Shown one piece after another: positions 2,615-21,285 of a DNA stretch of 64,000 nt. Source of the DNA: a virus; IMG/VR virus record IMGVR_UViG_3300028394_000052, positions 1-64,000 of that record, one strand, 5' to 3'. The notes under the pieces are model-generated. The model was not told the origin of the DNA and made no database searches. It worked only from the letters and a program-made list of their open reading frames with translations. Both the position numbers and the translations under genes were made by a program. The stretch's first letter is position 1; every line of letters starts with the position of its first letter.

Positions 2615-2884
2615 ATGGCATTATTAGCATCAATTACACCGGTATCAATTTTAACTAAACAAGCCTCATATCTTAGAGCAAGTATCAGTAGATATGATTT
2701 AATGGCTTCAGAATGTTATGTCAAATATGACCTCTTGAATTCTTCAGGAGAATATGTATTTGGTGAAACATATAAATTATCACCATCAGTCTTACAAACT
2801 TGGGGAACTGATGATAAGGTAATTATACAAGCAATTGCTTCCGATAGAGGAATGACAATTACAGGATATCCTACAAGTATTTAA
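2615..2884 (+). CDS. Small virion-type protein, unknown function
   Basis: This 89-residue protein starts MALLASITPVSILTK and is predicted to be mostly beta-strand, with no membrane segment or cysteine-rich motif apart from one Cys. It has its own late-type box 4 bases upstream. It is the last plus-strand gene before the minus-strand glycosylation island, and its TAA overlaps the stop of the convergent gene by 4 bases. The late box and position beside the fibre genes suggest a structural or assembly role; the family is unknown. Confidence 0.7.
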   Translation: MALLASITPVSILTKQASYLRASISRYDLMASECYVKYDLLNSSGEYVFGETYKLSPSVLQTWGTDDKVIIQAIASDRGMTITGYPTSI

Positions 2885-3258
2885 TATTGAGAATAACTTT
2901 TCTCTTCAATAAACCCTGATGAATATTTCAGGTTTATTTCTTTTTTTATTTTAGCACGAACATCGTTGGTGTAGTAAACATCACGAGCAAGTTTAACGAA
3001 ATCATCGTCAAATTGTTTTTGCCTTTCTTTTTCTCTAATATCATCTTCAATAACCCAAAGGTCCTTATTAATTGATAATAGTTCTAAATATTCAGGAGAT
3101 GACGTTAAAATACCTAAATCATTCTCAACGATTGATAATAAATAATTGTACTCCTTTACAATATTATCCAACTTACTTGGGTCTTTTATATTTTCTTTTT
3201 TAATTTGGAGAATTGTTAACTTATCGACAATCTCTCCGTGTGATACTTCTATATTCAT
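2881..3258 (-). CDS. DUF6165-like protein of the glycosylation island
   Basis: This 125-residue protein begins MNIEVSHGEIVDKLTILQIK, followed by KLDNIVKEYNYL. That matches the start of DUF6165 (usually IEVSxGELVDKxTILEIK), a small helical family found beside lipopolysaccharide and other glycan genes. The biochemical role is not known. It is the last gene of the island, and its ATG overlaps the stop of the upstream GT4-TibC gene by 4 bases, so the two are translationally coupled. Much of the rest is charged helix, as usual for the family. Confidence 0.75.
   Translation of the reverse strand: MNIEVSHGEIVDKLTILQIKKENIKDPSKLDNIVKEYNYLLSIVENDLGILTSSPEYLELLSINKDLWVIEDDIREKERQKQFDDDFVKLARDVYYTNDVRAKIKKEINLKYSSGFIEEKSYSQY
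2908..2947 (+). terminator. Rho-independent terminator of the fibre transcript
   Basis: An 11-bp stem (AATAAACC-TGA paired with TCAGGTTTATT, one bulged C) is followed by TC and seven T on the plus strand. It lies inside the 3' end of the opposing gene 2881-3258, so plus-strand transcription ends within minus-strand coding sequence. Confidence 0.65.
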
Positions 3259-5357
3259 TTTATTAAATGTTGTATTTGATTTATTACCATTTCTGACGTT
3301 ATTAATTTATGACACTCGTGTTGTCTTGAAGTATTTTTGTGTTCAGGACACCAATTCCAATCACCTTTATCAAACTTAAACATAGCTTTATTCCAACAAC
3401 CATTACATACATCGTAATTAACGATTCTTGTACAATCACCGACAAATTCATGGTCAGCACTTGTGAAGTTTGATAACATAACAACGTGTTTTCCTAAAGC
3501 CCATGATAACCAAGATAAACCACTTGATAATCCAATCATAAATTCACTATGGTAAATTACGTTTTGGGTATTATACATTGAAGTATCATTAATCATTTCA
3601 GCGTTGTGAACATTGTTACCTTCTTTTGATATGTTGATTACCCTATAACCTTTTGATTTTAAGTAATCAACCAATTCAACCCAACCTGTTTCATTATTCC
3701 AAAATTTACATTGTGCTGTTGAACTAGTTGCAATAACCACATATTTTTCTTCATAAGGTCTTTCTGATGGTGTAAAATCAATTTTAGTTCTAATTTCTTT
3801 GTGGTCTAAACCAAGTATTAAACTAGCATGTTCTTGTAAACCAACAATGTTTGGTAATGTTGGTTCTTTATTCAAATCATAAAACCAACCCAAAGTGTAC
3901 ATTCCAAATAAATCATTTACTGTACTTCCAGGTGTTACAAATTCAATTTTTGGATATACATTTTTGAACAAATCATTCTTGAATGTTGAAGTAATAACAT
4001 GACAATTATGTCTTTTTCTAAATTCATCAATATATGGCATCCATGCAATGTTGTCACCCAAAGAACCTGAATCAACTGCGATATAAACTCGTTTACCTGA
4101 TAAGTTAAGTTTATAATCAAAAACAGGCATATCACCATCATAAACTTTCATATTCCAATTACGGAAATATTGTTTATTTGTTTTGGCAAACATACCAGAA
4201 CTGAGTTTATTTTTATAATCCAAATGATTGTCATTCCAAATCTCAACATCAAAATGTCTTGTTGCAGAACCTAAAACTTCTATGTAAGCACCTTTAATAA
4301 AATTGATATTAAACGAATAATCATTTAATATTTCATGTTCGATTTTATTGGTATTTTCATACACATCAATGTAAAGTTGTTTGGTTAATTCAGAGTTATA
4401 TTCTTTTTTAATATCGTTTACTGAATTATATATGTTTAACAATCTTTTACAAATAACCGACCAATCATATTTTAATTTTTCACTTTGAGTGTGGTTAACA
4501 AAAGTTTCAATATTTGATGTAACGTGTTTAATACCTGTTACCACAGAATTTGTTGACCTATCAATCTTGTAAATACTATTAAGTTCTTTGGTACCATCAT
4601 AAGTTCCAACAATTGGAAGACCGCATGAAATCGCCTCAAGTAATGTTAAATTTGGATGACCCGCTTCTAATTCAGATGGATGTAAAAATATTGTATGTTC
4701 ATTATACAATTTAATTAACTCTTCTTCATTTGGGTTTGTATCAATGATGTGTAATTTATCATAATCCAATAAATCTTTATTAACATTAAAGAAATTCTCA
4801 TTGTTTTTTGGACCAACAATAGTAATCGGATGATTCAACTCACGAGCGGCTTCAATAGCATATCTAAAACCTTTTCTATCCACACTTTGATTATCAGCAT
4901 ATCCATTGTTGGCAACACACAATAATTTTGTATAAGGTTTAATAAGAGAGTCGTTTTTATATAACTCAGTATCAACACCATGACTCAAATAAAACAATTT
5001 ATCCGTCTCATCAAAATACTTACACAAATTTTCAGCGTGTGTAAAAGAAATAATTGACCCTTTAATGGCATCAAGGTTTTCTTTATAAGTTTGAGAATCT
5101 TTACCATGACGAACAACGTGATGGTCGTGTAATGAAAAGATATACGGTATACCTCTTTCTTGAGCCATAATTGCCAAATTGGCAACGTGGATGTGAATAA
5201 TGTCAGATGTGGTATCAACATCATCAAGATATTGAATACCACACTCATGACCCATTTTTTCAAACTGTATCTTATAGTTCCAAATAATCTTTTCTATCGC
5301 ACCCCAACCTTTTGGAGGTATTGATATTAAACCTGGTGTTACCTGAGTAATTTTCAT
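3255..5357 (-). CDS. Fused glycosyltransferase: GT4 domain plus TibC-like O-heptosyltransferase
   Basis: This 700-residue two-enzyme fusion has an N-terminal GT-B/GT4 part (about 1-310) with the donor-site motif ELEAGHPNLTLLEA and IVGTYDGTKE. A linker beta-domain (NINFIKGAYIEVLG, about 347-420) follows. The C-terminal part (about 420-700) matches the autotransporter strand-loop-strand O-heptosyltransferase family: SLGDNIAWMPYIDEF, GLSSGLSWLSWALGKHVVM, then cysteines C651, C654, C670 and C682. TibC of this family glycosylates serines of autotransporter adhesins and holds iron through four such cysteines. Here the acceptor is unknown; the phage's own Ser-rich fibre is an attractive candidate. 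Signature motifs are present in both halves, so both may be active. Confidence 0.85.
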   Translation of the reverse strand: MKITQVTPGLISIPPKGWGAIEKIIWNYKIQFEKMGHECGIQYLDDVDTTSDIIHIHVANLAIMAQERGIPYIFSLHDHHVVRHGKDSQTYKENLDAIKGSIISFTHAENLCKYFDETDKLFYLSHGVDTELYKNDSLIKPYTKLLCVANNGYADNQSVDRKGFRYAIEAARELNHPITIVGPKNNENFFNVNKDLLDYDKLHIIDTNPNEEELIKLYNEHTIFLHPSELEAGHPNLTLLEAISCGLPIVGTYDGTKELNSIYKIDRSTNSVVTGIKHVTSNIETFVNHTQSEKLKYDWSVICKRLLNIYNSVNDIKKEYNSELTKQLYIDVYENTNKIEHEILNDYSFNINFIKGAYIEVLGSATRHFDVEIWNDNHLDYKNKLSSGMFAKTNKQYFRNWNMKVYDGDMPVFDYKLNLSGKRVYIAVDSGSLGDNIAWMPYIDEFRKRHNCHVITSTFKNDLFKNVYPKIEFVTPGSTVNDLFGMYTLGWFYDLNKEPTLPNIVGLQEHASLILGLDHKEIRTKIDFTPSERPYEEKYVVIATSSTAQCKFWNNETGWVELVDYLKSKGYRVINISKEGNNVHNAEMINDTSMYNTQNVIYHSEFMIGLSSGLSWLSWALGKHVVMLSNFTSADHEFVGDCTRIVNYDVCNGCWNKAMFKFDKGDWNWCPEHKNTSRQHECHKLITSEMVINQIQHLIK

Positions 5358-5363
5358 AATTTA

Positions 5364-6395
5364 TTAAAATATAGTAAATTCAACGTAACTATAAATGTTT
5401 TTGTTATATTCATCGTATAGTAATTTGTCATTTTCATAAACTTCAATCTTTTCAATTTCTTTTGAATGTGTAGTATAAGTAAAATATCCTTTAGATTCAA
5501 CAACATGAACTATATTATCAATACTACCATCAGTGTAAAATATTTTAACATCTCTTTTAACCATTTTATCTTTATAGTTAAAAGTTAAAATGATTTTATC
5601 CGTTTCATTTTCACATTTGATACAGTTATAAATTCTTGTTGAACAACCTCGATACTTTGGTGATAAGTTAGCCTCACTAGTTTCACTATTAAAATATGTG
5701 CCCTCAAAATCAGAACTCATATTGTCCTTACCATTTCTTGTTATAATATCAGTATTATTTTCTAATTTAAGAGTATCAAAAATAAACGTCTCTACAGGGG
5801 TAAACTTTTTAACACCCCATTTATTAAAGATGTAATCTTGATAATCTTTTTCACAACTAATCTTGGGGGAGGTGTTTAGGAAATAATCAATTTCACAAAA
5901 CATGTAGTGAAAAGATGCGTCTTTACCATCATCATATTTGTTAACATAAAACCAACCTTTTTTGTTTTGTTCCAAACAAGTTTGGGGTATTTGTTTCATG
6001 AACTCCAATGATTTTTCTCCAAGTAACGCATCAACTTCCAACCTTTGAAAATGGGTGTATCCCAAATTTTTACACAATTCTAATGTAAAAAATAAATTAA
6101 TAATAACGGACAAACCATGTCTTTGAAACGCTGGTTCAAGTTCATGAATACCACCTTTATCAAAACCTTTCCAAATGTCCAACAAACTAACACCTTCATA
6201 ATCATCGGTAAATAAACGATTGTTTTTATCGTAAAAAGAATAGTTTGTTAATTCTTGTATATGTGGTGGTATGTTTGTATTAGATAACAGAAAGACATCC
6301 TCACCATTATTTTTAAGTTGAGAAATCATTGTTTCTAATTTTTCTAAGACTTTATCAGAACTGATAAAGCAATCTATAATTGTAATTTTTTTCAT
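5364..6395 (-). CDS. Glycosyltransferase-like protein, island paralogue family, member 1
   Basis: This 343-residue protein opens MKKITIIDCFISSDKVLEKL, then VFLLSNTNIPPHI, HGLSVIINLFF and LGYTHFQRLEVDALL. The EVDAL acid pair sits where GT-A enzymes carry a DxD. It is clearly related to the gene at 7525-8541 (same order of SNTxIP, HGLSV, LGYTHFxxLExD, then a beta-rich C-terminal half), and more distantly to 9272-10216 and 10209-11240. The C-terminal ~110 residues look like a separate beta-sandwich. The 4-base overlap with the upstream GT2 gene supports one operon. The transferase role is inferred. Confidence 0.65.
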   Translation of the reverse strand: MKKITIIDCFISSDKVLEKLETMISQLKNNGEDVFLLSNTNIPPHIQELTNYSFYDKNNRLFTDDYEGVSLLDIWKGFDKGGIHELEPAFQRHGLSVIINLFFTLELCKNLGYTHFQRLEVDALLGEKSLEFMKQIPQTCLEQNKKGWFYVNKYDDGKDASFHYMFCEIDYFLNTSPKISCEKDYQDYIFNKWGVKKFTPVETFIFDTLKLENNTDIITRNGKDNMSSDFEGTYFNSETSEANLSPKYRGCSTRIYNCIKCENETDKIILTFNYKDKMVKRDVKIFYTDGSIDNIVHVVESKGYFTYTTHSKEIEKIEVYENDKLLYDEYNKNIYSYVEFTIF

Positions 6396-7522
6396 GATGG
6401 TATTCCTACTGTAAAAAGACAGAATTCAAAACAGTTAGTGAAATAATAATACTTTTGTAATAAAAAATCAGAAATTTCATTATAAAGTTTTTCTCTTAAT
6501 TCAGTGTTTTCAATATTGTCCACGGCAATTCTAACATTGCAGTTTGGGTTTAATTCAAAAATTTTGGATATTGTATTCGTCATAAGAACAACATCGGTCA
6601 TGGTTTTAATATAATAAAATCCCCAATCATACTCACGGTCAAATTTGTTTAAATGTACGTCTTGGTCAAATAATAACTCCTTAATTAAACCAAATTTTTT
6701 ATCGTTAATTGACGTTGTAAAATACCCAATCCTTTTCTGAGTATCAATCATGGAAAATTCCATATCCATAAATGGTAATGATAAATCAACAATGTCCTCA
6801 AAATACCTGTCAATCGTTTCAATCTCGTTACCTCTACGTTCATTAACCATTGAAACAATGTTTCTATTCTCATCCATCATCTTGTCCAAGTTTTCCATTG
6901 TGTATAATTTTCTGCTGATGGATTCAGGTCTATACCTGTATTTGTATAAAGCTCTTGGTAAGATTAATACTTTACCTTCCTCTTCTAAATGAGCATTGAA
7001 TACCAAATCATTATAGAAGAACTCCATCCAATCACCAGGGTTGTAATCAACATCGGTAATCTTATTTCTCCATGCTTTAAGATATAAGATATTCCCACAC
7101 AATAGATTTTTACAATTCTTGAAATTACGAACCTCAAAGTTATTCCAACTACCATCGTCCAAAAAAGAATTGGACCTACAAGATATCATAATAACTTCAG
7201 GGAATTTGGTGAAATAATATAGATATACCTCAAGAGCTTTGGGGGATATAACATCATCACTTCCAAGTTCAACAATAATTTCAGATTCTTTACAAAACCA
7301 TTGTGGATTGTAAAACATTTCTTTTTTCTTGGATTGTTCTATATATCTAACTTTTTTATCATTAGAACAAATGTCTAACAAAATTTGTTTTGTATTATCA
7401 TCAGAAAAATCGTCAGTTACAATCCATTCCCAATTGGTATAGGTTTGTGATTTTATTGAATCATATAATTCTTTAATATAATTCTCTGTTTTATAAAATG
7501 ATGTAACAAATGTGAATTTCAT
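6392..7522 (-). CDS. Family 2 glycosyltransferase
   Basis: This 376-residue GT-A fold enzyme has FVTSFYKTENYIKELYDSI at the nucleotide-binding N-terminus, then NWEWIVTDDFSDDNT and IIVELGSDDVISPKAL, where the SDD is the metal/nucleotide-binding DxD. Such enzymes transfer a sugar from a nucleotide-sugar donor with inversion. No transmembrane anchor is visible, so it should act in the cytoplasm. The C-terminal half (about 230-376) is not a standard GT2 region and may recognise the acceptor. Its stop overlaps the start of the next gene by 4 bases. Confidence 0.85.
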   Translation of the reverse strand: MKFTFVTSFYKTENYIKELYDSIKSQTYTNWEWIVTDDFSDDNTKQILLDICSNDKKVRYIEQSKKKEMFYNPQWFCKESEIIVELGSDDVISPKALEVYLYYFTKFPEVIMISCRSNSFLDDGSWNNFEVRNFKNCKNLLCGNILYLKAWRNKITDVDYNPGDWMEFFYNDLVFNAHLEEEGKVLILPRALYKYRYRPESISRKLYTMENLDKMMDENRNIVSMVNERRGNEIETIDRYFEDIVDLSLPFMDMEFSMIDTQKRIGYFTTSINDKKFGLIKELLFDQDVHLNKFDREYDWGFYYIKTMTDVVLMTNTISKIFELNPNCNVRIAVDNIENTELREKLYNEISDFLLQKYYYFTNCFEFCLFTVGIPS

Positions 7523-7524
7523 AT

Positions 7525-8541
7525 TTAACTAATTTGTATTAGATTATTAACTTCTGAGATATGTTCAGTATAAAGTAACTCACCATTCTCAAATACTTCA
7601 ATAAACTGAATGTTGGGGGTTATACTGTCATAAGTATAACTACCTTTACTGGTTATATGATGTGTTGATGTGTAAATAAAACCATCATCAAAATAACATT
7701 TAATAATTCTTTCTTTATGTTTATTATCATAATTCATTGATAATAATACGACATACTCATTTGTATCCATTGGCAAATACAAACGAGATGTACAGCTATT
7801 ATATTTTTTAGGTATGTTATTTGGTGAAACTTCAGAATTCCAATACGTGTTTGGAAATTTCAAATCTCGTTCTTCTTCGTTAATTAATACAAAATTTTCT
7901 AAACCAGAAATTTCTAAATTTTGATATAAAAATCTTTCAACATTGATGAAGAAATTATTACCATTTGTTTGATTAATAAAATCACGATAATCATTTTCAT
8001 ATTTTATGTTTTTAACATTTGATAAAAAATAATCAATTTCAGAGAAAAAATAATGAAAGGATACATCAGGAGGGTTTGTTATATTATTTAGTAAGTACAA
8101 ACCTTTTTTATTTTCATCTAAACATCTTGAAGGTAATAAAGATAAATTGTTAAATGACTCGTCAGAGAATAATGGGTCATATTCTAATTTTTCAAAATGG
8201 GTATAACCTAAACTTTTACCAATAGTAATTGCGTTAAAAATATTAATCATCACAGATAAACCATGTGGTTGTAATTTTGGAAAAACATCTTGACAATTAC
8301 CGCCAGATATTAAAGTCTTAACTACAAACAATTCAGAAAATTCCCAATCACTTGAAAAAAAATGATTATTGGAATCGTATAAACAATAATCTACTTTTTG
8401 TTGAATTTCTATTGGAATAGTTGTATTTGAAATTAATAAAATATCAGAATTTTTTGATTTTAATTTGTCAATAAACGAATCTAATTTATTGAGTATTGTG
8501 TTGTTATGGATGTAACAATCTAATATGGTTAAAAGTTTCAT
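7525..8541 (-). CDS. Glycosyltransferase-like protein, island paralogue family, member 2
   Basis: This 338-residue protein is the closest relative of the gene at 5364-6395. Shared landmarks are MKLLTILDCYIHNN, DILLISNTTIPIEIQ, QPHGLSVMINIFNA, LGYTHFEKLEYDPLF (acidic pair as a possible DxD), VSFHYFFSEIDYFL and a C-terminal beta-rich domain ending in FIEVFENGELLYTEH. The two copies flank the GT2 gene, which points to a local duplication. The family function is not established; a sugar transferase fits the context. Confidence 0.65.
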   Translation of the reverse strand: MKLLTILDCYIHNNTILNKLDSFIDKLKSKNSDILLISNTTIPIEIQQKVDYCLYDSNNHFFSSDWEFSELFVVKTLISGGNCQDVFPKLQPHGLSVMINIFNAITIGKSLGYTHFEKLEYDPLFSDESFNNLSLLPSRCLDENKKGLYLLNNITNPPDVSFHYFFSEIDYFLSNVKNIKYENDYRDFINQTNGNNFFINVERFLYQNLEISGLENFVLINEEERDLKFPNTYWNSEVSPNNIPKKYNSCTSRLYLPMDTNEYVVLLSMNYDNKHKERIIKCYFDDGFIYTSTHHITSKGSYTYDSITPNIQFIEVFENGELLYTEHISEVNNLIQIS

Positions 8542-8543
8542 AA

Positions 8544-9242
8544 TTATTTTTTCTTAATAACTGAAGTAATTGACCTAATAGGGTAATTATTTTCACATGT
8601 AAAATCAGTAGTATATGGTAAATCTTTGTTATATGTATCAAATATGGTTACAGAATCTACTAAGTTATTGATTTGTATTAAGTTTTCTTCTGAAATCCAA
8701 AGACTACTAAATGGTCTTTGATTTAAAAATTTAATCGTGTTATTGTTAATTTTAGTTTGAGTTTGAATATAACCATAAAGATTATTACCTAATGTGAAGT
8801 AACTACTACCCAAATCTTCAATGATATAAAAACCGTTTGGTTTAACTAATTCAAATAATTTACCAAAAGTTAATTGTTGGTGTTCAACATCATGTGAACC
8901 ATCATCTAATATAAAGTCAAATTGGATGTTATTAGATTTACAATAATTAACAAAACTATCTAAATCTTGAGATTTACTTTGGTCTAAAATAAATGTCTTA
9001 ATTCTATCATTATTGTATAATGATTTGTCATTTATATCTAATCCAAAAATTTGAGCGTTTTGAAAATAATCATAATAAGACTTTAGAGAACCTCCAGAAT
9101 CAATACCGATTTCACAAATATTAGTTGCTGAGTTTTTTAGTTTTGAAAACCAATTTTCATAAAAATTGGCGTATCGATTACCAAGTGGTGATAAATCTCC
9201 TTTATCTGTGTTATTTTGGTTGCAGTAGTAATTAAAATCCAT
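8544..9242 (-). CDS. SAM-dependent sugar O-methyltransferase-like protein
   Basis: This 232-residue protein resembles the class I methyltransferases of macrolide-sugar tailoring (MycE/OleY type) and related glycan O-methyltransferases. Landmarks are NNTDKGDLSPLGNRYANFYE, the SAM-binding ICEIGIDSGGSLKSYYDYF, GLDIND, DFILDDGSHDVEHQQLTF (metal-binding DD and H) and GFYIIEDLGSSYF. It probably methylates a sugar hydroxyl of the island's glycan. It lies between two glycosyltransferase-like paralogues in the same operon. The substrate cannot be read from the sequence. Confidence 0.8.
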   Translation of the reverse strand: MDFNYYCNQNNTDKGDLSPLGNRYANFYENWFSKLKNSATNICEIGIDSGGSLKSYYDYFQNAQIFGLDINDKSLYNNDRIKTFILDQSKSQDLDSFVNYCKSNNIQFDFILDDGSHDVEHQQLTFGKLFELVKPNGFYIIEDLGSSYFTLGNNLYGYIQTQTKINNNTIKFLNQRPFSSLWISEENLIQINNLVDSVTIFDTYNKDLPYTTDFTCENNYPIRSITSVIKKK

Positions 9243-9271
9243 AAATAAATAATAACAAACAATTGATTAAA

Positions 9272-10216
9272 TTAAAGATTATTACAATCATCAACATCAG
9301 TTATTATAATTTTATTATGAGATATGTTATTATACAGATGGATTAAGTTGTGTGTATTACCATTATATGTTATTGATAAACTAAATACATCATCATGATG
9401 AAGATTTAGGTCCATTAAATAATGATTACTAATAACCGTATCAATAGTAATGTTATTTACCTCAACAGTTACATCATAAGAACCATTTAAATCGTAAAAA
9501 AATATTTTAGCAGTATCATCATCGGCCAATGTTCTTTTATGTAAGAAAAACTTAAAATCAACATAAATAGAATAATTAAATAAATCTAAGTTTTCAAAAA
9601 AATATATTTCATCCTTAGTATCATACTTTTCAATTTTACAAGGTAAGACTTTTGATATGTTAGATAGTAAAGTTTCGGCAACATCATAGTTTTTATAATA
9701 TAAATCCTTAGTTATTATTTCTTGAAATAAACTTAATACATTTTTATTAAAACCCATAAAAAAACCACCAACTTCAAAACCTTTATTACTTGGGAATAAT
9801 ATACATTTTTCGTTAGTTAAGAATGTGTCAATTAAATGTTCGTCAATTACTGTATCATAAATTATGTGAAAATAATATTCATAATCATATGTTAACCCAA
9901 TTTGACTTAATTTTTTAATTTGGTATAATGACGCCCATCCATAATCTGATTTACCTAAATGAAGTTCGTAAAATTTATTATCCATACAATAAGCCCAATA
10001 TTCAAACATTGTTTTTCCTGGCCATTTTGTAACAGGATTTTCTTTTGTCTGAATAAAAACATTACATAAATCAATAATATACTCAGGTAAATTTATGGGT
10101 GATAATAATATAACATCTAAATTATTAGATTTAATTAGTTTTATGTTTTTTTCTAAAACATCAATTTTATTCTGTTTATCACAGAATGAGTTTATTAATA
10201 CTACCCTGTTATTCAC
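9272..10216 (-). CDS. Glycosyltransferase-like protein, island paralogue family, member 3 (divergent)
   Basis: This 314-residue protein begins NRVVLINSFCDKQNKIDVLEK, then LDVILLSPINLPEYI, the same layout as members 1 and 2 (LLSNTxIP). It continues with WASLYQIKKLSQIGLTYDYEYYFHIIYDTVID, in which a DxxxD replaces the ExD of the other copies. The C-terminal ~90 residues form a beta-rich module. It overlaps the upstream gene by 8 bases. The transferase function is inferred only from family resemblance and context. Confidence 0.6.
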   Translation of the reverse strand: MNNRVVLINSFCDKQNKIDVLEKNIKLIKSNNLDVILLSPINLPEYIIDLCNVFIQTKENPVTKWPGKTMFEYWAYCMDNKFYELHLGKSDYGWASLYQIKKLSQIGLTYDYEYYFHIIYDTVIDEHLIDTFLTNEKCILFPSNKGFEVGGFFMGFNKNVLSLFQEIITKDLYYKNYDVAETLLSNISKVLPCKIEKYDTKDEIYFFENLDLFNYSIYVDFKFFLHKRTLADDDTAKIFFYDLNGSYDVTVEVNNITIDTVISNHYLMDLNLHHDDVFSLSITYNGNTHNLIHLYNNISHNKIIITDVDDCNNL

Positions 10217-11240
10217 TTTTCTTAAATTTTAAAAATGATGGTTTATTTGATAATATTTCACTACCAAGTTTTTCAACTGAACTAATTATTCTTTCAGATA
10301 AATAACATTCAATTTTCCATTTGTCATTATCGGTTGTTTTATACCACCACCAATACATACTACCTAATTTTAAGGTGTTTGACAATATTTTCACATCATT
10401 TTTATATAAATTAATAACAACATTATGTGATGAATTACACATTGGTAAAATACCGTAAATGTGGTTTTCATTATCATAATCTCTCACTAAATCAACATAT
10501 GCGTTTACAACATCATAATCTGGTAGGTGTAATCCTTTAGTGTCTGCAATACCGGCCCACTTACTTGTAAAAATATCTGAAGCTCTAAATTTTTCAATGA
10601 TACCAAAACCACCGCAGTCTTTTATTCGTTGTCTTACAAAAAATTCTAAAATATAATTATTACCACAATATTTTAAATAATTTTCAGGAGAATTGGCAAC
10701 ACTAAATAACTCAATAAAATAAGATATTTTGCCAGCAAAAATTGATAAAACTGGAAATAAACCATTACGGTCATGAGCATCATTCATAAACCAATAGTCT
10801 AAGTTTGTTAAATCTTTTAAGTGTGTTTCTAATACTGTATGGTCTTTTTGATTTATAAAATAATCGTAATTGTGGTATATGAAATGTGTAAAACCTTTTT
10901 CTTTAAGTAAATTTAATCCGTTTTTTAAGTTAATTAACGAAGCGTAATGTGTGGTACCTAATCTATTACCTAAATTAGATTGGTAATAATAATTAGGATA
11001 ACTTGAGAAAATTACAGAATCTGAGTACGATGGTAATGTTAAAATTTCATTTTCATCTGAATAAACATAATAATTAACGGATTTTTGTATATCGACATTA
11101 ACGGGTGAATGAGATACTAAACATATTTTATAACCTTGTCTTTTAATACCTTCAATTGTTAATGATAGTAAAGCACTATCATTTGAATTCTGAGGATGAG
11201 CACCAATTAATACGCAAGTTTTTTCACTATCAATTGACAT
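10209..11240 (-). CDS. Glycosyltransferase-like protein, island paralogue family, member 4 (divergent)
   Basis: This 343-residue protein has the family pattern: an N-terminal strand (KTCVLIGAHPQNSNDSALL), YKICLVSHSPVNVDIQ in place of LLSNTxIPxxIQ, LGTTHYASLINLKNGLNLLKEKGFTHFIYHNYDYFI (NYDYF at the possible DxD position), and a C-terminal beta module. It also keeps GLFPVLSIFAGKISYFIELF, matching the FSEIDYFL stretch of members 1 and 2. The chemistry is unproven. Confidence 0.6.
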   Translation of the reverse strand: MSIDSEKTCVLIGAHPQNSNDSALLSLTIEGIKRQGYKICLVSHSPVNVDIQKSVNYYVYSDENEILTLPSYSDSVIFSSYPNYYYQSNLGNRLGTTHYASLINLKNGLNLLKEKGFTHFIYHNYDYFINQKDHTVLETHLKDLTNLDYWFMNDAHDRNGLFPVLSIFAGKISYFIELFSVANSPENYLKYCGNNYILEFFVRQRIKDCGGFGIIEKFRASDIFTSKWAGIADTKGLHLPDYDVVNAYVDLVRDYDNENHIYGILPMCNSSHNVVINLYKNDVKILSNTLKLGSMYWWWYKTTDNDKWKIECYLSERIISSVEKLGSEILSNKPSFLKFKKSE

Positions 11241-11258
11241 ACAATTATATTTTTCATT

Positions 11259-13202: not shown

Positions 13203-13205
13203 GTA

Positions 13206-13787
13206 TTATATTTTTGGTGTGATATAAATTAAACCTCTTTTAGCTCCAACGGCCTCAGTGTTGTAGTAATAATCAAAACCATTTGGGTATATTTTTTTTA
13301 TATGATTTTCAATCCAATCAAAACAAAAATCATTTCCATTATATGAATCATATCCTAATTCAGGATTATTTGTTTTGAAATCATGAATTACAATAATTGG
13401 TGTTGTGTTTAATGTTGAAATAATATCTAATTCATCTAATAAAGGACAATAATCACCCCAATGCGCATCTAAGAAGAAAATTGTTGGGTCTGATAATTTA
13501 CCTTGTAAATTTGGTAGACCAATTAAACTGTTTTCTAAAAATGAATTTACATTATTAAAATCTTTAGTCTTTTCAATACCGACATTATAAAAATGTTCAT
13601 TAGTTTCATAGGTATATACTGTTTGAAAATTTTCACCAAACCATTTTGTTGTACTAAAAACATAACTACCTGTCTCAACAACATTTTTAACATCAAATTT
13701 ATGTTTTAGTTTAATGAACTCATACTCAGTAATTACATCACCTGCAAATGGTTCATCTTCGTACGCAAATATATTAAATACGCTCAT
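13206..13787 (-). CDS. Class I SAM methyltransferase-like protein
   Basis: This 193-residue protein has VVETGSYVFSTTKWFGENF (motif I in the ETGSYxGxT form), VYTYETNEHFYNVGIEK and TIFFLDAHWGDYCPLLDELDII, followed by IVIHDF. This FLDAHW pattern is typical of a methyltransferase-like family common in surface-glycan clusters, often annotated only as SAM-dependent methyltransferase. Its stop lies 3 bases before the next ATG, and its own ATG overlaps the stop of the carbamoyltransferase gene by 4 bases. The substrate is unknown. Confidence 0.7.
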   Translation of the reverse strand: MSVFNIFAYEDEPFAGDVITEYEFIKLKHKFDVKNVVETGSYVFSTTKWFGENFQTVYTYETNEHFYNVGIEKTKDFNNVNSFLENSLIGLPNLQGKLSDPTIFFLDAHWGDYCPLLDELDIISTLNTTPIIVIHDFKTNNPELGYDSYNGNDFCFDWIENHIKKIYPNGFDYYYNTEAVGAKRGLIYITPKI

Positions 13788-15370
13788 ATTATTTTACTAA
13801 TAATATAATCTTCAGTGATAATGTAGTCAATAGAATTGTCCAAAAGATGTTTTAATACTTGGTGTGGATAATTGTTAATTGGTTCACCATGTGAATTAAA
13901 AGATGTGTTTAAGACTAATGGTATTCCTGATAATTTATAATACTCGGAAATTATATTATGAAAGTGTGGGTTTGTTATTTTATTTACACTTTGAGGTCTT
14001 GCTGTCCCATCTTTTTGATGTATAACCGCTGGAATCATCTCAATCCAAGAATCTTTAGTGTTATAACATAATGTCATAAATTCTGCAGCATACTTTGATT
14101 TGTCATTTGAAAACACGTCAAAAAAATGTTCTTCCAACACACTTGGTGCAAATGGCATAATTTCAGTTCTTTTAAGTCTTGTATTCAATAATGTGTGAGT
14201 GTCTTTATCTGTTGGTCTACAAATAATACTACGATTACCTAAAGCTCTTGGACCATACTCTGTTTTACCAACAAAGACTCCAAGTATTTTACCATCATTT
14301 ATTAATGAAGCAATTTTTTCAAAAGAAACAGGTTCTGTTGTTAAAGTGTTTTCATGTGATAAAAGTTCATTATCCCAATATTCTTTACTAAACTTTGAGC
14401 CAAAAAATACATTGTCTAATTTTACTGGTGTTGGTAATTCACCTAACTCATTAGATTTACATATTGCGGCACCCAACGCCAAACCACCATCACCCATTGA
14501 TGGGTGAATAAAGATTTCATCAAATAATGATGTGTTATTTATAAATTGGTTTAATTTAACATTTGCAAAAATACCACCAGCAAATGTTATTTTATTATAA
14601 TCAGGGTACTTGTCTTTCAAGTCCTTCAAAAATTGATACATTATTTGTTCCGATAATACTTCTAAAGTAAAAGCTAAATTATTACGTTTTTCAACTGAAT
14701 CAAAATAACCATTTTTATTTAAGTTATGTTCAAAAATAAAATCAAACATTGGGTGACCATTTTTTGGTCCAATCATTAAATTACCTTCATATTTTAAACA
14801 TTGTGATAAATAATCATATATTTCTTGGTCAAATTGACCATGAGAAACCATACCAACAATTTTACCTTCATCCTTAAACATCTTCCAACCTAATAGTTGG
14901 GTTACTTTACCCCAAACACCAGCAATAGACATTGTTAATGATGTTGGAAGTGTATGTACTTGTTCACAACTACCTGAGTCACACAAGTAGATTTTACCTC
15001 TACTTCTGTGTCCTTGACCATCATGACTCATTGCAATTACTTTTCCTTTGAAACCTGATGTGAAATATGCACCTAATGCGTGACATTTTTGATGTGAAAA
15101 ACTATCAAATTTATGTTCAACACCCATAAAGTCATGTTCGATACCCATATGTCGGGGGAGAGCAAAAACAACATGGTCAACATTGTTAATTGTTACATTA
15201 AAATTGTCTCTTAAAAAATCTAAACCCATGTTTGGTCTTTGCCAAAAATGATTGAGAGCTTTACTACCAGTTAATTTTTCTTCTTCCATGGCACAAATGA
15301 TTTTACCATCTTCTATGTATGCTACTGAGGAATCGTGTCCTCCATAGTGTATTCCTATAATTTTACTCAT
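13784..15370 (-). CDS. Carbamoyltransferase (NodU/CmcH family)
   Basis: This 528-residue protein has the N-terminal ATP-binding fold IIGIHYGGHDSSVAYIEDGK and MEEEKLTGSK, a metal-site pattern (HDGQGHR), ITFAGGIFANVKLNQFI, and the C-terminal carbamoyltransferase domain EYGPRALGNRSIICRPTD, MPFAPSVLEE and LVLNTSFNSHGEPI. The family carbamoylates sugar or antibiotic hydroxyls from carbamoyl phosphate and ATP. It would cap the phage-encoded glycan with a carbamoyl group. Length and motifs look complete. It overlaps both neighbours by 4 bases. Confidence 0.9.
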   Translation of the reverse strand: MSKIIGIHYGGHDSSVAYIEDGKIICAMEEEKLTGSKALNHFWQRPNMGLDFLRDNFNVTINNVDHVVFALPRHMGIEHDFMGVEHKFDSFSHQKCHALGAYFTSGFKGKVIAMSHDGQGHRSRGKIYLCDSGSCEQVHTLPTSLTMSIAGVWGKVTQLLGWKMFKDEGKIVGMVSHGQFDQEIYDYLSQCLKYEGNLMIGPKNGHPMFDFIFEHNLNKNGYFDSVEKRNNLAFTLEVLSEQIMYQFLKDLKDKYPDYNKITFAGGIFANVKLNQFINNTSLFDEIFIHPSMGDGGLALGAAICKSNELGELPTPVKLDNVFFGSKFSKEYWDNELLSHENTLTTEPVSFEKIASLINDGKILGVFVGKTEYGPRALGNRSIICRPTDKDTHTLLNTRLKRTEIMPFAPSVLEEHFFDVFSNDKSKYAAEFMTLCYNTKDSWIEMIPAVIHQKDGTARPQSVNKITNPHFHNIISEYYKLSGIPLVLNTSFNSHGEPINNYPHQVLKHLLDNSIDYIITEDYIISKII

Positions 15371-16014
15371 AAATTCATAATGTCGTTAAATAATTGTTTA
15401 GATGTCATTTTTAACCAATCATTTCTGTGATTATACGACACATTTGGTTCCGTGTGGTTTTGATACAAGACCCAACCTGAACCCCATTCACCATAAGATA
15501 AATGTAATAAATGGTGTCTATCAATTGCGTAATCTGCATAATATTTTGTTGGAAAGTTAGATACCGCAGGTTCAATATCTTCAAAAATAATCTCAGGTAA
15601 TTTGTTATGTAATTTTAATCTGTCATTAAATTTTGAATATATGTGTAAATTACAACCAGTATTTTTCTTAAATTGAACAGATAAATTAAACCACTCTAAA
15701 CATTCTTCATAAGAATCTGTTTTAAGTCGCAATAAAACATTTTCATCGGTTTCATTGTAAGTGTGTTCACTTACTTGAACCACTTTATTATCGTACCAAC
15801 CATATATTTTAATCTTCCAATTAACTCTAAATTGTTTTGCAACGTATTTGAACCAAGTATAACAGTGTATTACATTATACGAGACCAATGACCATCCATG
15901 TCCTGTGTTTTCATAATATTCAATTAAATATTTTTCAGAGGATAAATCTTGAATATCAACAAATGCTCCACCAATAAAATTTATGTTAATGGGTATATTA
16001 GAGAAATCTTTCAT
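15367..16014 (-). CDS. Beta-domain protein related to the linker domain of the TibC-like enzymes
   Basis: This 215-residue protein begins IPININFIGGAFVDIQDL, then KYLIEYYENTGHGWSLVSYN and FRVNWKIKIYGW. That matches the domain before the catalytic parts of the fused enzyme at 3255-5357 (NINFIKGAYIEVLG, FRNWNMKVYDG) and of the TibC-like protein at 16016-17212 (INYLDGCMVEIVG, YFVEWKIVVLK). Here the domain stands alone, followed by about 130 residues with no recognisable transferase motifs. It could be an acceptor-binding or scaffold subunit. It starts 1 base after the upstream gene ends. Confidence 0.65.
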   Translation of the reverse strand: MKDFSNIPININFIGGAFVDIQDLSSEKYLIEYYENTGHGWSLVSYNVIHCYTWFKYVAKQFRVNWKIKIYGWYDNKVVQVSEHTYNETDENVLLRLKTDSYEECLEWFNLSVQFKKNTGCNLHIYSKFNDRLKLHNKLPEIIFEDIEPAVSNFPTKYYADYAIDRHHLLHLSYGEWGSGWVLYQNHTEPNVSYNHRNDWLKMTSKQLFNDIMNL

Positions 16015-16015
16015 T

Positions 16016-17212
16016 TTAGTTTTTTATTAAATTATTTTCAAGTATTTTATTCATAACCATAGTAGGTGATATGGTTCTAGTACATTCAAATCTTTTATTT
16101 TCAGGACAAAAATCTTTTAAAAATGTTACAAATTTATCACAATGTTTTGGTGAATTCCAACAACCATGACAAACATTATCATTATAAATTCTAACACAAT
16201 CTTGACTAAATTCGTTTTCTTTAATTGTTACTCCTGATATCATAACAACTTTGGTGTTACAAGCCCATGCTAACCAAGCTAAACCAGAACTCATACCAAT
16301 AAAAAAATCACAGTGTTTTAAGTACCATGCTCTGTTAGATAAAGGTAAGTCACCATTTAATTTAGTGATACCTTTTAGGTTTGATTTTTCTTTTGATATG
16401 GAAACAATCTCATATCCATATGACTTTAACATTTGAATCAATTTTTCCCAGCCAACAGGATTATTCCATTCTTTTATTGGACCTGACGCAAATTCAGAAA
16501 TACAAATGTATTTGTTTTTAATTGGTCTTTCGTCTGAAATATTTTGAATTAAAGGTTTTATTTCTTTGTATTCTAAACCAATTTGTGTTGCTCCAAATTC
16601 TTGTAGTGGTACTAAATTAGGATGTTTTGGGGATGAATCGGTATTCCATAACGTTAAACCTTCTAAATACTTTTTCTTTTTTTTATATAATTCATTAAGT
16701 AATATAGATTGTTCCTCAGGTGTTTTACCATATACCATTCTGTAACTGGCATAAAATTTTTCATCATCCATTTGATAATTTCCAAAATCAACCATATTAA
16801 TGTTAGGATATGTGTCCTCAAATAAATCCTTCAAACTAAATTGTAATGTCACTTTACAATTATGTTTTTTTGCAAATTCATTTGCATATGCCACCCAAGC
16901 AATGTTATCACCAAGAGGGGTGTTTTGAATAGTAATTAAGACTTCTTTGTCTCGTAGGTTAATAATTTCTTCATGAATAACACCTACATTGTTTTTTAAT
17001 ACTACAATTTTCCACTCAACAAAATACTGAATACTTGGTTTGGTCCAATAATTAGGTTTCAAATTTGCGTGATGTAATAGTTTACCTGTTTGATTATTAA
17101 TAAACAATACTTCATATGTTTCTGATTCATTATACTGAACACCTTTTTCACCAACAATTTCAACCATACAACCATCAAGGTAGTTAATTTTTAATTCAAT
17201 ATTATTCTTCAT
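16016..17212 (-). CDS. TibC-like protein O-heptosyltransferase
   Basis: The most likely start is the ATG at 17212 (398 residues; GGAA lies a few bases upstream and the start overlaps the previous gene by 11). A longer frame begins at 17263. The N-terminal beta-domain (INYLDGCMVEIVG) is followed by TPLGDNIAWVAYANEFAKKH and a GT9-like domain: YICISEFASGPIKEWNNPVG, GMSSGLAWLAWACNTKVVM and a Cys cluster (VCHGCW, then HC, FCP, FEC). This is the autotransporter heptosyltransferase family whose TibC member binds iron through such cysteines. It is a paralogue of the C-terminal half of 3255-5357. The protein acceptor is unknown. Confidence 0.8.
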   Translation of the reverse strand: MKNNIELKINYLDGCMVEIVGEKGVQYNESETYEVLFINNQTGKLLHHANLKPNYWTKPSIQYFVEWKIVVLKNNVGVIHEEIINLRDKEVLITIQNTPLGDNIAWVAYANEFAKKHNCKVTLQFSLKDLFEDTYPNINMVDFGNYQMDDEKFYASYRMVYGKTPEEQSILLNELYKKKKKYLEGLTLWNTDSSPKHPNLVPLQEFGATQIGLEYKEIKPLIQNISDERPIKNKYICISEFASGPIKEWNNPVGWEKLIQMLKSYGYEIVSISKEKSNLKGITKLNGDLPLSNRAWYLKHCDFFIGMSSGLAWLAWACNTKVVMISGVTIKENEFSQDCVRIYNDNVCHGCWNSPKHCDKFVTFLKDFCPENKRFECTRTISPTMVMNKILENNLIKN

Positions 17213-18209
17213 ATATTTCCATAATTTTATTAAATACTGAATCGTATTGTGGGTGACATTCAAATGTAGGTTTTTTCTCCAAACAATTAATTAAAGGTGG
17301 TACTCCTTGAACACTTCCCCACTCTTCAACACCGTACTTCATATCTGAAGCGCAAAATATTGAACATCCACCACCAACATAGTGGTATTTGTATTCTTGA
17401 GAATTGTGTCTATATGGTGCCCTCCAACGAGGATTAATTGATGAACCTAATTGTATAATATGAGCATCGGTTGTACCTGCTAAGTGTAAAAGACCCGAAT
17501 CCATTGTAACAAACGCAATTGAATTTTGAATTAAATGCCAAGCTTGTGATAAATTGGTTTCATTCATTAAATTTAAACCATTTTCTATATGAAAATTAAA
17601 TACTGGTTTATCAATATTCCAAAAACCAACCTCACTTGAATCTTTACCTATTGAAACAACAGAAATACCCGATTTATTTAATTCTTCAGTTAATTTAACC
17701 CATTGATATGAGTCCCAAGTCCTACTTGGCCAGTTCTGAACTGGGTGTATCAAAACATATTTTTCAGGTAATCCTTCAATTGGTGTAAATTCATCTGGGT
17801 TATAGATACATTCCATTTCTTCAGGAAACAATTGAAATCCTAACAACATTGCATGATACTGACGAATATCGGTATGTGCGTGTTTATGTTGGATTCCTTT
17901 ATCATTTTGTTTACCAATATCGTAAAACGAATTGTGTACTATGAAATTTTCTCTAATATAGTCCATATTCATACCACCCGATGGGTAATTTTTATCTATA
18001 TATGGATTATTTTTAAAAATTTCAGGGTGTTGTGAAATTATATTAACTTTACAATTATAAGCCTCACTTACTTTTTTAATGGTAGGTGTTGAACATAAAG
18101 TATCACCAATTGATGGGCAGTCACTTAAATCGTAAAAGATTGAATCTCCTACGTCAAGTATGTTTGCATCCCAAAGATATTTGTTTGTTGTGTGCCAGTA
18201 TTTACGCAT
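17202..18209 (-). CDS. Family 9 glycosyltransferase (heptosyltransferase-like)
   Basis: This 335-residue GT-B protein has CPSIGDTLCSTPTIKKVSEAY at the N-terminal acceptor side, YVLIHPVQNWPSRTWDSYQW in the centre, and AFVTMDSGLLHLAGTTDAHIIQLGS at the donor side, the standard GT9 order. GT9 members move heptose from ADP-heptose in lipopolysaccharide core synthesis. A C-terminal Cys-bearing stretch (GGGCSIFCASDMKYGVEEW, then NCLEKKPTFECHP) is unusual and recalls the metal-binding tail of the TibC group encoded next door. Heptose as the sugar is inferred. Confidence 0.8.
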   Translation of the reverse strand: MRKYWHTTNKYLWDANILDVGDSIFYDLSDCPSIGDTLCSTPTIKKVSEAYNCKVNIISQHPEIFKNNPYIDKNYPSGGMNMDYIRENFIVHNSFYDIGKQNDKGIQHKHAHTDIRQYHAMLLGFQLFPEEMECIYNPDEFTPIEGLPEKYVLIHPVQNWPSRTWDSYQWVKLTEELNKSGISVVSIGKDSSEVGFWNIDKPVFNFHIENGLNLMNETNLSQAWHLIQNSIAFVTMDSGLLHLAGTTDAHIIQLGSSINPRWRAPYRHNSQEYKYHYVGGGCSIFCASDMKYGVEEWGSVQGVPPLINCLEKKPTFECHPQYDSVFNKIMEIYEE

Positions 18210-18224
18210 AATGTGAATTATAAG

Positions 18225-18941
18225 TTATTTCATTGTATTATTCAATGCTGAATAACCTGAAACTTGTTTACCAATCATTTCTTTATGTGATAATAATCCA
18301 CCTCTATTGGCATAAACCCAAGCCAACCAAACATCTGGAGAATGCCAATAATGTGTTTGGAGATTATTAATTATATTATTTCTTTCTGATTTATATATCA
18401 TATACATTGAGCCTAATAAGAAATGTGGTACATCGTAAAAATCTCCCAAATCAATCACTTTATCCCAATAATCATCATTTCCTGATAACCAAACAATATT
18501 TCCTGAAAAAGAACAAATTTTTGAACCACGTTCAACACCCAATTCATATCCTTTTTTAATTGTATTAAAAAAATCATCAGGGTTTAATTCCGTTATTACA
18601 TCACCCTCTAAAATAATTAATGCATCTAAATCATTTGAAAATTCTTGGGTTATTGCTCGTTTATGTGCCATGTATGCACCGTAATGACCATAAGATAAAC
18701 AATACGAGTCATTACCTTCACAAGTCTCATTAATAATTGCGTTTTCCCAACAAGTATTCCAAGGTAATTCTTCTCTATTAATAATGGAATATTGTTGAGT
18801 ATAAGAATCAAATTTACACTTTAATTTTTCAAAACAATCAATGGATTGTTTTTGTTTATTTAAGATTGATTGCCATCTCTCATCTGATACATCTTTTTGA
18901 TGTTCAGGATTTATTAAAAGGTGAACTATTTTAATTTTCAT
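18225..18941 (-). CDS. GT25-like glycosyltransferase
   Basis: This 238-residue protein has IKIVHLLINPEHQKDVSDERW at the start, CLSYGHYGAYMAHKRAI (compare the LSxGEIGCxLSHxxA block of GT25) and DALIILEGDVITELNPDDF (compare the ILEDDV metal-binding strand). The later PHFLLGSMYMIYKSERNNI matches the GT25 'gtxaYlis' position. GT25 enzymes act in lipooligosaccharide and collagen Gly-x-x glycosylation; a Gly-x-x fibre is encoded at 11-1894. The assignment rests on motif order only. Confidence 0.55.
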   Translation of the reverse strand: MKIKIVHLLINPEHQKDVSDERWQSILNKQKQSIDCFEKLKCKFDSYTQQYSIINREELPWNTCWENAIINETCEGNDSYCLSYGHYGAYMAHKRAITQEFSNDLDALIILEGDVITELNPDDFFNTIKKGYELGVERGSKICSFSGNIVWLSGNDDYWDKVIDLGDFYDVPHFLLGSMYMIYKSERNNIINNLQTHYWHSPDVWLAWVYANRGGLLSHKEMIGKQVSGYSALNNTMK

Positions 18942-18943
18942 GG

Positions 18944-20053
18944 TTAATAATTGTTAATTGTGTTAATAATATGATTTACTTCGTCAATTGTCAAAAATGG
19001 ATGAATTGGAATTGATACTATTCTATTACATGTCTCATCTGTTTTTGAACTTGAAAATACAATATCTTCACTATCAAAAATTGATGTTTGATGAATTGGA
19101 ATTGGATAGTGAATAATTGTAGTAATACTATTATCAGACATATGTTTTTCAAATGACTTACGGTCATCAACCTCAACGCAAAAAATATGATATGAATGTG
19201 TTGTACAATCTTCAGATACTTTTGGTAAAACAACTTTTGGGTTGTTAATTTCATTATGATAACGTTCTGTAATTTTATTTTTAATATCAGTCCACTCTTT
19301 AAGGTGTTTTAATTTCTCAGATAATACAATTGCTTGCATTGAATCCAATCTATTATTATAACCAATCTCATCATAATGATATTTTACTTTTGAACCATAG
19401 TTTCTAATTGACTTTAATCTATTATAAAAATCTTCATTGTTAGTTGTAATAATACCAGCGTCACCACAAGCGCCAAGATTCTTACCTGGATATAATGAAT
19501 AAACTGCCAAATCACCATATGAACCCAAATAATTGTTTTTGTATTTTGTTTCATGTGATTGAGAACAATCCTCAATGACGTGAAAATTATATTCCTTTGA
19601 TAATCTCATAATGGTATCCATATCACATGAGTGACCATATAAGTGAACAGGTATTACAACCACTTTATTAAAATTATCTCTACGATTTTTTAAAAACAAC
19701 TCTAAATGATTTGTATCAATCGTGAAATGTTCGTCATGGTCAATAAGTGCTACAAAAGGTTCTGTGAGTGGTAAATGTTTAACTGCCAAGTAATCGGCAA
19801 CAAATGTGTTTGATGGTATAATAACTAAATCAGTATTGGTTAAATCAAACATTTGAAGAGCCAATTTTAAACCATCAGTACCATTTGACACACCAACAGC
19901 GTATTTTGTGTTATAATGTTGGGCAAATTCAGATTCAAATTCTGAAACCGCAGGTCCGTTAATATATGAACCTTGATAACCAAGTTTATCTATTTTTTCT
20001 AAAACAACTTCTCTAATTGTTTCCCATTGTTTTCCTAAATCGTTAAATTGCAT
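18944..20053 (-). CDS. DegT/DnrJ-type PLP-dependent sugar aminotransferase
   Basis: This 369-residue protein has YAVGVSNGTDGLKLAL, IPVHLYGHSCDMDTI, VIEDCSQSHETKY and SLYPGKNLGACGDAG, where the Lys of PGKNLG should bind PLP, then LDSMQAIVLSEKL. The family converts a keto-sugar nucleotide to an amino sugar. With the oxidoreductase and acyltransferase just upstream it forms a set like WbpB-WbpE-WbpD, giving a 3-acetamido sugar. It is closest by eye to the WbpE/FdtB group (3-aminotransferases). It overlaps the upstream gene by 11 bases. Confidence 0.9.
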   Translation of the reverse strand: MQFNDLGKQWETIREVVLEKIDKLGYQGSYINGPAVSEFESEFAQHYNTKYAVGVSNGTDGLKLALQMFDLTNTDLVIIPSNTFVADYLAVKHLPLTEPFVALIDHDEHFTIDTNHLELFLKNRRDNFNKVVVIPVHLYGHSCDMDTIMRLSKEYNFHVIEDCSQSHETKYKNNYLGSYGDLAVYSLYPGKNLGACGDAGIITTNNEDFYNRLKSIRNYGSKVKYHYDEIGYNNRLDSMQAIVLSEKLKHLKEWTDIKNKITERYHNEINNPKVVLPKVSEDCTTHSYHIFCVEVDDRKSFEKHMSDNSITTIIHYPIPIHQTSIFDSEDIVFSSSKTDETCNRIVSIPIHPFLTIDEVNHIINTINNY

Positions 20054-20885
20054 GTTCTAAGTTTTTTGTTATTTTAAGTGTTATTTCTTTATTTGAATCA
20101 AAATTATTGTCACTGAAGAAGTGTCTCATACCAATATGGATTGGGGATGGAGAGTCTGAAAAATCTTCAACACCATTATTAGTAATGATTACTTTTTTTA
20201 CATCATCAAAAACGATAACTTCATCATCTTCAGTAATGAATAATGATACCCTGTTTTTTGTTTTATGTTGCCAAGATGAATTAATTATAACTTGCAATCC
20301 ACTTTTATAATACCAACTAATATTGGAACCAAAGTCTTCATTTGATTTAACTGAAAATTCATTCCAAGTAAAATCAAAATTTGTTCTACCAAATATGTGA
20401 TATAAAATGGATAAATCATGTGATGATAAATCGTGGATTGAACTTGTGTCAAATCTTTTTGGACCGTCATTGGTTCTGTTAAGAATGACTTGTTTAATTT
20501 TTTTCTTAGACACAATTTTTCTGATTTTATCAACACATGGATTGAACGTATAAACCCAATCAACAAATAACATATTGTTATTTTGTTCCATTAATGAATA
20601 TATTTCGGTTGATTCTTTATATGTGTTAACCAAAGGTTTTTCACACCAAATTCTTTTGTTCTTAAATTCAGATAATTTCAATAATATTTCGTGGTGTGTT
20701 GTAAATGGTGTTACAACAAAATAATGTGAATAACTATCATCCAATAGATTGAAGTTGTCTAAAACAACATCAACAATTGTGATATCATTATACCCTAATG
20801 ATAATAAATTTTTATGGAGTATTTTACCCCAATAACCATATCCAATTAGGCAAATTTTATGATTTAATTCTTGCCGGATTTCCAT
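20043..20885 (-). CDS. Gfo/Idh/MocA-family sugar oxidoreductase
   Basis: This 280-residue protein has a Rossmann start ICLIGYGYWGKILHKNL (GxGxxG), YFVVTPFTTHHEILLKL, and RIWCEKPLVNTYKES, which holds the catalytic EKP Lys. FVDWVYTFNPCVDKI follows, then DLSSHDLSILYHIFG. The family oxidises sugar nucleotides with NAD. In the Wbp/Wlb pathway the equivalent enzyme makes the 3-keto sugar used by the aminotransferase. It is a little shorter than typical WbpB (about 315). Its start overlaps the upstream acyltransferase gene by 29 bases. Confidence 0.85.
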   Translation of the reverse strand: MEIRQELNHKICLIGYGYWGKILHKNLLSLGYNDITIVDVVLDNFNLLDDSYSHYFVVTPFTTHHEILLKLSEFKNKRIWCEKPLVNTYKESTEIYSLMEQNNNMLFVDWVYTFNPCVDKIRKIVSKKKIKQVILNRTNDGPKRFDTSSIHDLSSHDLSILYHIFGRTNFDFTWNEFSVKSNEDFGSNISWYYKSGLQVIINSSWQHKTKNRVSLFITEDDEVIVFDDVKKVIITNNGVEDFSDSPSPIHIGMRHFFSDNNFDSNKEITLKITKNLEHAI

Positions 20886-21285
20886 AAACTGTTACATTAT
20901 CAGGTATGTCTTTTGTAACGACTGAACCCGCACCTATTATTACGTTATTACCAATCTTGACTGGTAAAATTGTTGAGTTGGAACCAATTCTAACGCGGTC
21001 ACCAATAATTGTTTTTTTCATTTCCCAATTTTCTATTAAATCTGAGTCAAATGTGTCATTGGTAAACATAACTCCGTGACCGATAAAAACATTGTTACCT
21101 ATTTTAACACCTGAAGGTATGAAAGAGTGTGAACTAATAATAGAATCATTCCCAATTTCTGAATCTCGTTGAATTTCAACAAATGGACCAATCTTAACAT
21201 TGTTACCAATCTTACAACCATAAAGGTTTGTTGGTTCAACAACAAAAACATTTTCACCAAATTGTACGTTTTTTATACTACCCAT
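20857..21285 (-). CDS. Left-handed beta-helix (hexapeptide) sugar N-acetyltransferase
   Basis: This 142-residue protein is made of hexapeptide repeats: IGNNVKIGPFVEI, IGNDSIISSHSFI, IGNNVFIGHGVMF, IGDRVRIGSNSTI and IGNNVIIGAGSVV, ending VYGNPARIK. The loop GVMFTNDTFDSDL is typical of the WbpD/FdtC-type acetyltransferases that acetylate the 3-amino group of a nucleotide sugar. It is the first gene of the minus-strand island. Upstream, the sequence TATATTAT ends 6 bases before the ATG and could be the island promoter, but the match is weak. Confidence 0.85.
   Translation of the reverse strand: MGSIKNVQFGENVFVVEPTNLYGCKIGNNVKIGPFVEIQRDSEIGNDSIISSHSFIPSGVKIGNNVFIGHGVMFTNDTFDSDLIENWEMKKTIIGDRVRIGSNSTILPVKIGNNVIIGAGSVVTKDIPDNVTVYGNPARIKS

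Follow-up and report, generated by a model that had tools for sequence, protein, structure and literature searches.

A phage sugar-enzyme island with TibC-family glycosyltransferases probably glycosylates the phage's own collagen-like tail fibre

The window analysed here (positions 1-64,000) covers the initial 64 kb of a viral record of 98.8 kb. Between 2881 and 21285 it contains 18 open reading frames of 125-700 amino acids, all on the minus strand and tiled with overlaps or short gaps; the other genes up to 64 kb lie nearly all on the plus strand. This locus raises the question of what a phage does with such a set of sugar enzymes, and on which molecule they act. A sequence-only reading had proposed that the island glycosylates the phage's own virion proteins, pointing to a fibre on one side and three mucin-like proteins on the other as acceptors. 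The region is organized as follows.

11..1894, plus: long tail fibre, collagen-like (Gly-X-Y, Y mostly Ser), 3' end only; C-terminal Peptidase_S74 chaperone domain; probable acceptor
2881..3258, minus: g01, DUF6165; adjoins BAHT in the minimal islands L107, L109 and L110 too
3255..5357, minus: g02, N-terminal GT4-like glycosyltransferase plus BAHT (TibC/Aah-family) domain, residues ~354-697; conserved core of the island
5364..6395, minus: g03, putative glycosyltransferase, GT-A-like, with C-terminal beta domain; one family with g05, g07 and g08
6392..7522, minus: g04, GT2 glycosyltransferase
7525..8541, minus: g05, g03 paralogue, putative GT-A-like
8544..9242, minus: g06, SAM methyltransferase (PHROG methyltransferase match)
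9272..10216, minus: g07, distant member of the g03 family; recurs in islands of relatives
10209..11240, minus: g08, distant member of the g03 family
11259..13202, minus: g09, GT4 glycosyltransferase fused to FkbM methyltransferase
13206..13787, minus: g10, without family match; methyltransferase-like only by eye
13784..15370, minus: g11, carbamoyltransferase, NodU/Nol-type
15367..16014, minus: g12, lone TibC-type N-terminal barrel (residues 4-101; hhalign 99.9%) without catalytic domain
16016..17263, minus: g13, second BAHT (TibC/Aah-family) O-glycosyltransferase; Arg at the TibC R286 position
17202..18209, minus: g14, GT9, heptosyltransferase II-like; present in relatives' minimal islands
18225..18941, minus: g15, without annotation; fused to a g09-like GT4 in relative L085
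18944..20053, minus: g16, DegT sugar aminotransferase, QdtB/WbpE-like (3-keto sugars)
20043..20885, minus: g17, Gfo/Idh/MocA oxidoreductase; nearest NCBIfam family UDP-GlcNAc 3-dehydrogenase, below cut-off
20857..21285, minus: g18, hexapeptide sugar N-/O-acyltransferase, WxcM/QdtC-like
21734..24424, plus: Thr-Pro-rich protein 1; lineage-wide, occurs without BAHT too
24665..25312, plus: Thr-Pro-rich protein 2
25374..27713, plus: Thr-Pro-rich protein 3; SprB repeats, a hint of Bacteroidota
27756..29960, plus: conserved neighbour used as lineage marker; present in 464 viral contigs

The tiling of the reading frames, the Pfam and NCBIfam families and a 104-kb twin record together confirmed the island as proposed. 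The twin was assembled independently and is 99.995% identical to the island across 20 kb, which rules out an assembly artefact. Pfam recognized a GT4-like plus GT9 protein, a GT2, a GT4 plus FkbM methyltransferase fusion, a carbamoyltransferase and two more GT9 proteins, together with a DegT aminotransferase, a Gfo/Idh/MocA oxidoreductase, a hexapeptide acyltransferase and DUF6165. The four proteins g03, g05, g07 and g08, which carry no Pfam annotation, group into a single divergent family. AF2 gave g03 a GT-A-like model (pLDDT 74), whose best PDB match, a weak one, is a PBCV-1 capsid glycosyltransferase. The trio g16-g18 resembles enzymes for 3-acylamino sugars (QdtB/WbpE, WxcM/QdtC). An assignment of g17 (20043-20885) as a plain WlbA homologue was rejected, its nearest PDB matches being only generic Gfo/Idh proteins. 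Further along the record (L004:5719-7756; record 86719-88756) lies a second sugar/lipid trio, comprising a cytidylyltransferase-like protein, a GT2 and a calcineurin-like phosphoesterase.

This is a large freshwater phage, probably with a Bacteroidota host. A 639-amino-acid protein encoded outside the window (L003:12703-14622; record 75702-77621) carries cohesin, dockerin-like and type IX secretion Por_Secre_tail domains; it is a probable phage-encoded substrate of the type IX secretion system and thus points to such a host. No close named phage was found for the marker gene by tblastn against 50,697 phage records.

The identity of the two BAHT proteins is central to the function of the island. 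In E. coli, this family glycosylates serines of adhesins. Hallmarks of its bacterial members are a dodecameric ring, a beta-hairpin thumb and transfer from ADP-heptose to Ser of an autotransporter passenger. The C-terminal half of g02 (307.8 bits) and the whole of g13 (246.2 bits) exceed the curated cut-off of 200 of TIGR04414, the NCBIfam model for TibC/Aah O-heptosyltransferases, and phmmer aligned them to TibC structures with E-values of 3e-58 and 2e-40, respectively. The AF2 model of the g02 BAHT domain (pLDDT 90) matched TibC in Foldseek with a TM-score of 0.90, against 0.42-0.53 for LPS heptosyltransferases. Both proteins show the GT-B fold with an N-terminal beta-barrel, detected by hhalign at 100% in g02 and 99.9% in g13. 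We also considered this TibC-type barrel as a common docking domain of g03, g05, g07, g08 and g09 and rejected the idea, since hhalign finds it only in g02, g12 and g13; the lone barrel of g12 could be a partner or regulator subunit.

In TibC, D110 acts as the catalytic base and the sugar is bound by T226, K230, R286 and W305, of which R286 is needed for heptose binding; four cysteines hold iron, and the enzyme acts on Ser rather than Thr (PMC4358343). D110, K230 and W305 are invariant in our viral alignment, including g02 and g13, while T226 is Thr in g02 and Ser in g13. The four iron-finger cysteines (equivalents of C339, C342, C358 and C370) are present in g02, g13 and 54/55 other viral sequences. 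The R286 position is occupied by Thr in g02 and by Arg in g13, and Arg occurs there in 17/17 autotransporter-clade enzymes versus 7/55 other viral sequences. Because g02 and 48/55 of these viral sequences lack the Arg, heptose is doubtful as their donor, and we infer from this substitution that the donor of many viral BAHT members is something other than ADP-heptose. Viral and bacterial BAHT sequences interleave in few places of a quick tree, and one large viral clade is apparent.

No autotransporter was recognized within the 64-kb window; the neighbour on the g02 side is the collagen-like S74 fibre. The sequence-only reading had described it as a Gly-Ser-Thr-Ala fibre spanning 11-1894. Its S74 domain supports a virion fibre, but the segment is only the 3'-terminal part of a collagen-like protein that reaches at least 2,529 amino acids in the twin record, with 714 Gly-X-Y triplets in runs. 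The twin lacks the stop codon at 8-10, which is a contig-edge mismatch. The S74 domain, matches to tail-fibre PHROGs and the long Gly-X-Y tract identify the protein as a collagen-like phage tail fibre. Ser occupies the Y position in 82% of the triplets of collagen-like fibres near BAHT, versus 6% in Gly-Pro collagens.

To follow enzyme and fibre across the lineage, we used the marker gene (27756-29960), which recovered 79 loci; the group they come from is abundant, and its records reach 321 kb. A recurrent order emerged: a collagen-like fibre on the plus strand, a g02-like enzyme on the minus strand with few or many sugar genes, the Thr-Pro genes on the plus strand, and the marker. The smallest islands (L109 and L110) consist of DUF6165, g02 and g14 only. 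TIGR04414 was present in 28/50 records and a Gly-x-Ser/Thr pattern in 26/50, with both in 25, and the fibre pattern occurred in 1/22 records without BAHT. Because truncated contigs lose enzyme and fibre alike, the main table covers only records that extend 20 kb or more upstream of the marker. Within this set, the fibre was found in 18/20 BAHT-positive versus 0/14 BAHT-negative relatives (p=9e-8). Independent pairs on the tree of the marker, with contig truncation left in, gave 8 agreements and 0 disagreements. Most of the 18 island genes differ between relatives, so we only infer that all of them share one pathway. Separately, a 270-kb record (G050, of locus L083) has 553 matches to the Ser/Thr collagen pattern and lacks TIGR04414; a sugar cluster with DegT lies separately at 92.7 kb, and the record possibly encodes a different glycosylation enzyme.

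The same comparison bears on the three Thr-Pro-rich proteins as the main acceptors, an explanation that we now regard as very unlikely. These genes adjoin the island and look like mucins, and every BAHT-positive relative whose record covers the region has them, yet they are equally present in 14/14 informative BAHT-negative relatives. They are thereby ruled out as the acceptor that the island tracks, and the fibre, rather than the mucin-like proteins, is the likely acceptor. The expected co-occurrence of island and acceptor thus held for BAHT with the fibre and failed for BAHT with the Thr-Pro genes. Furthermore, TibC modifies Ser rather than Thr, although other glycosyltransferases could still act on the Thr-Pro proteins, which may be extra acceptors besides the fibre. 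Their assignment as virion proteins is based on position and weak PHROG matches, and the S74 fibre is the better supported virion protein.

The pairing of BAHT with a Ser-type collagen fibre recurs in many other phages. The BAHT profile matched at least 593 viral contigs. Where a locus has enough flank, there is mostly a collagen-like ORF no more than 10 kb away, usually convergent with the enzyme gene. Approached from the fibre side, contigs chosen by a Gly-Thr-Ser DNA pattern carried BAHT in 24/45 cases, compared with 0/38 for contigs chosen by a Gly-Pro pattern, in both cases among the matches listed (p=1e-8). For contigs of at least 60 kb, again among the matches listed, the counts were 20/23 versus 0/15 (p=5e-8), leaving 3/23 Gly-Thr-Ser contigs without BAHT. 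Among the matches listed, 11/20 independent loci have a fibre within 8 kb of BAHT, one at 40 bp, and just 3/20 have a Thr-Pro gene within that distance, so that the proposed mucin-like acceptors are missing near most independent BAHT loci.

Only four named phage records, among 50,697 scanned, contain BAHT. In two records of a 735-kb phage, a Ser/Thr collagen ORF lies 3.7 kb from BAHT, and a 636-kb phage (LR756504) has BAHT and no fibre nearby. In the cultured Microcystis phage Mel-JY01 (PP395634.1), BAHT adjoins the fibre and is annotated as 'methyltransferase FkbM'. The Mel-JY01 fibre (L199:2-3052) is a Gly-Thr/Ser-Ser collagen-like protein, and the database places a hypothetical protein on the opposite strand (739-2298, minus). 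This CDS was rejected as a rival to the plus-strand collagen frame, because it results from reading the repeat in antisense, as Pro-Val-Pro. In bacteria, BAHT directly precedes a long adhesin-like gene in many loci, a known arrangement. At five bacterial loci, mostly from Gammaproteobacteria MAGs (L476, L487, L497, L513 and L536), a TibC-family gene lies beside a Ser/Thr collagen-like ORF that is not an autotransporter.

The main rival is that the island alters the host LPS/O-antigen or capsule, for instance as a superinfection block. Several features are compatible with it: g14 resembles LPS heptosyltransferase II, amino-sugar, carbamoyl and acetyl enzymes are typical of O-antigens, and comparable cyanophage and pelagimyophage clusters have been published as LPS genes (PMC3037559, PMC7029224). 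However, the core enzyme is TibC-like rather than WaaC/WaaF-like, and BAHT tracks one fibre type across phages. None of the 18 island proteins has a membrane segment (no hydrophobic segment reaching 1.6), so that flippase, polymerase, ligase and lipid-linked initiating enzyme are missing from the island, which disfavours lipid-linked O-antigen assembly. We consider modification of the host surface unlikely as the main function of the island, and it could coexist with fibre glycosylation.

The sequence-only reading had named DNA as another possible target beside host LPS, and this part of its alternative found no support. DNA glycosylation is possible in phages, and stuffer DNA has been suggested for the LPS clusters of large cyanophages (PMC3037559). 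Among the island genes, no base-modification enzyme was recognized by Pfam, PHROG or NCBIfam, and in diverged relatives the frames are intact and the active-site residues conserved, which fits selection on the island. DNA base hypermodification or passive stuffer DNA is accordingly the least plausible explanation, to which we give hardly any credence.

Glycosylation of the phage's own fibre, as originally proposed, is strongly supported by the two TibC-family enzymes and by the co-occurrence of BAHT with Gly-Thr/Ser-Ser fibres across phages. The island is thus probably a cytoplasmic protein O-glycosylation system whose main acceptor is the phage's own collagen-like tail fibre. In such a system, the BAHT domain of g02 and g13 would add the first sugar to serines of Gly-(Thr/Ser/Ala)-Ser triplets, chiefly the Ser at the Y position. 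Judging from their families, the fused GT4, the GT2, g09, g14 and the GT-A-like proteins g03, g05, g07 and g08 would extend the chain, g16-g18 would supply a 3-acylamino sugar nucleotide, and the FkbM and other methyltransferases and the carbamoyltransferase would cap it. The glycosylated fibre would then be built onto the virion, where the sugars may stabilize its Pro-free Gly-X-Y helix, protect it from proteases or shield it.

The closest known systems are TibC with TibA and Aah with AIDA-I. The phage enzymes belong to the same family, keep the fold (TM 0.90), the catalytic Asp and the iron-finger cysteines, and are likewise soluble and encoded beside a long, repetitive, Ser-rich adhesin-like protein. 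In contrast, the phage version is fused to GT4 and other domains and accompanied by many added sugar enzymes, R286 is replaced in most members, and a collagen-like tail fibre takes the place of the autotransporter as partner. The repeats that BAHT enzymes are known to modify are the strand-loop-strand repeats of autotransporters, whereas the phage fibre consists of Gly-X-Y repeats. The 'LPS' clusters of the T4-like cyanophages P-SSM2, S-SSM7 and S-SM2 are similarly large sets of phage sugar enzymes, and the glycosyltransferases of pelagimyophage hypervariable regions likewise lie near tail-fibre genes, but these clusters have been ascribed to host LPS or stuffer DNA; within the phage collection, the BAHT domain had no match in P-SSM2. 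The chlorovirus PBCV-1 capsid is also glycosylated by virus-encoded enzymes, of other families and on another acceptor, and mycobacteriophage virion proteins are glycosylated by virus-encoded enzymes as well. We found no report of a phage BAHT or of glycosylated collagen-like phage fibres in the open-licence literature, and genes of this kind are mostly taken for LPS enzymes; as far as this literature shows, the enzyme family and the collagen-like fibres are each known and their pairing in phages is unreported.

Whether the principle is general we regard as evenly poised: the Ser-type collagen fibres of many unrelated phages may be obligate glycoproteins, made by TibC-family enzymes with non-heptose, often phage-built sugars, which would amount to widespread viral protein O-glycosylation. 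Mel-JY01, a cultured phage with the same enzyme-fibre pair, makes the pair open to direct testing. If our reading is correct, the vague label of 'LPS biosynthesis' for islands of large phages would give way to a specific, testable pairing of a single enzyme family with a single acceptor, and phages would join the few systems known to glycosylate their own virions. It would also suggest how Pro-free Gly-X-Y fibres gain stability.
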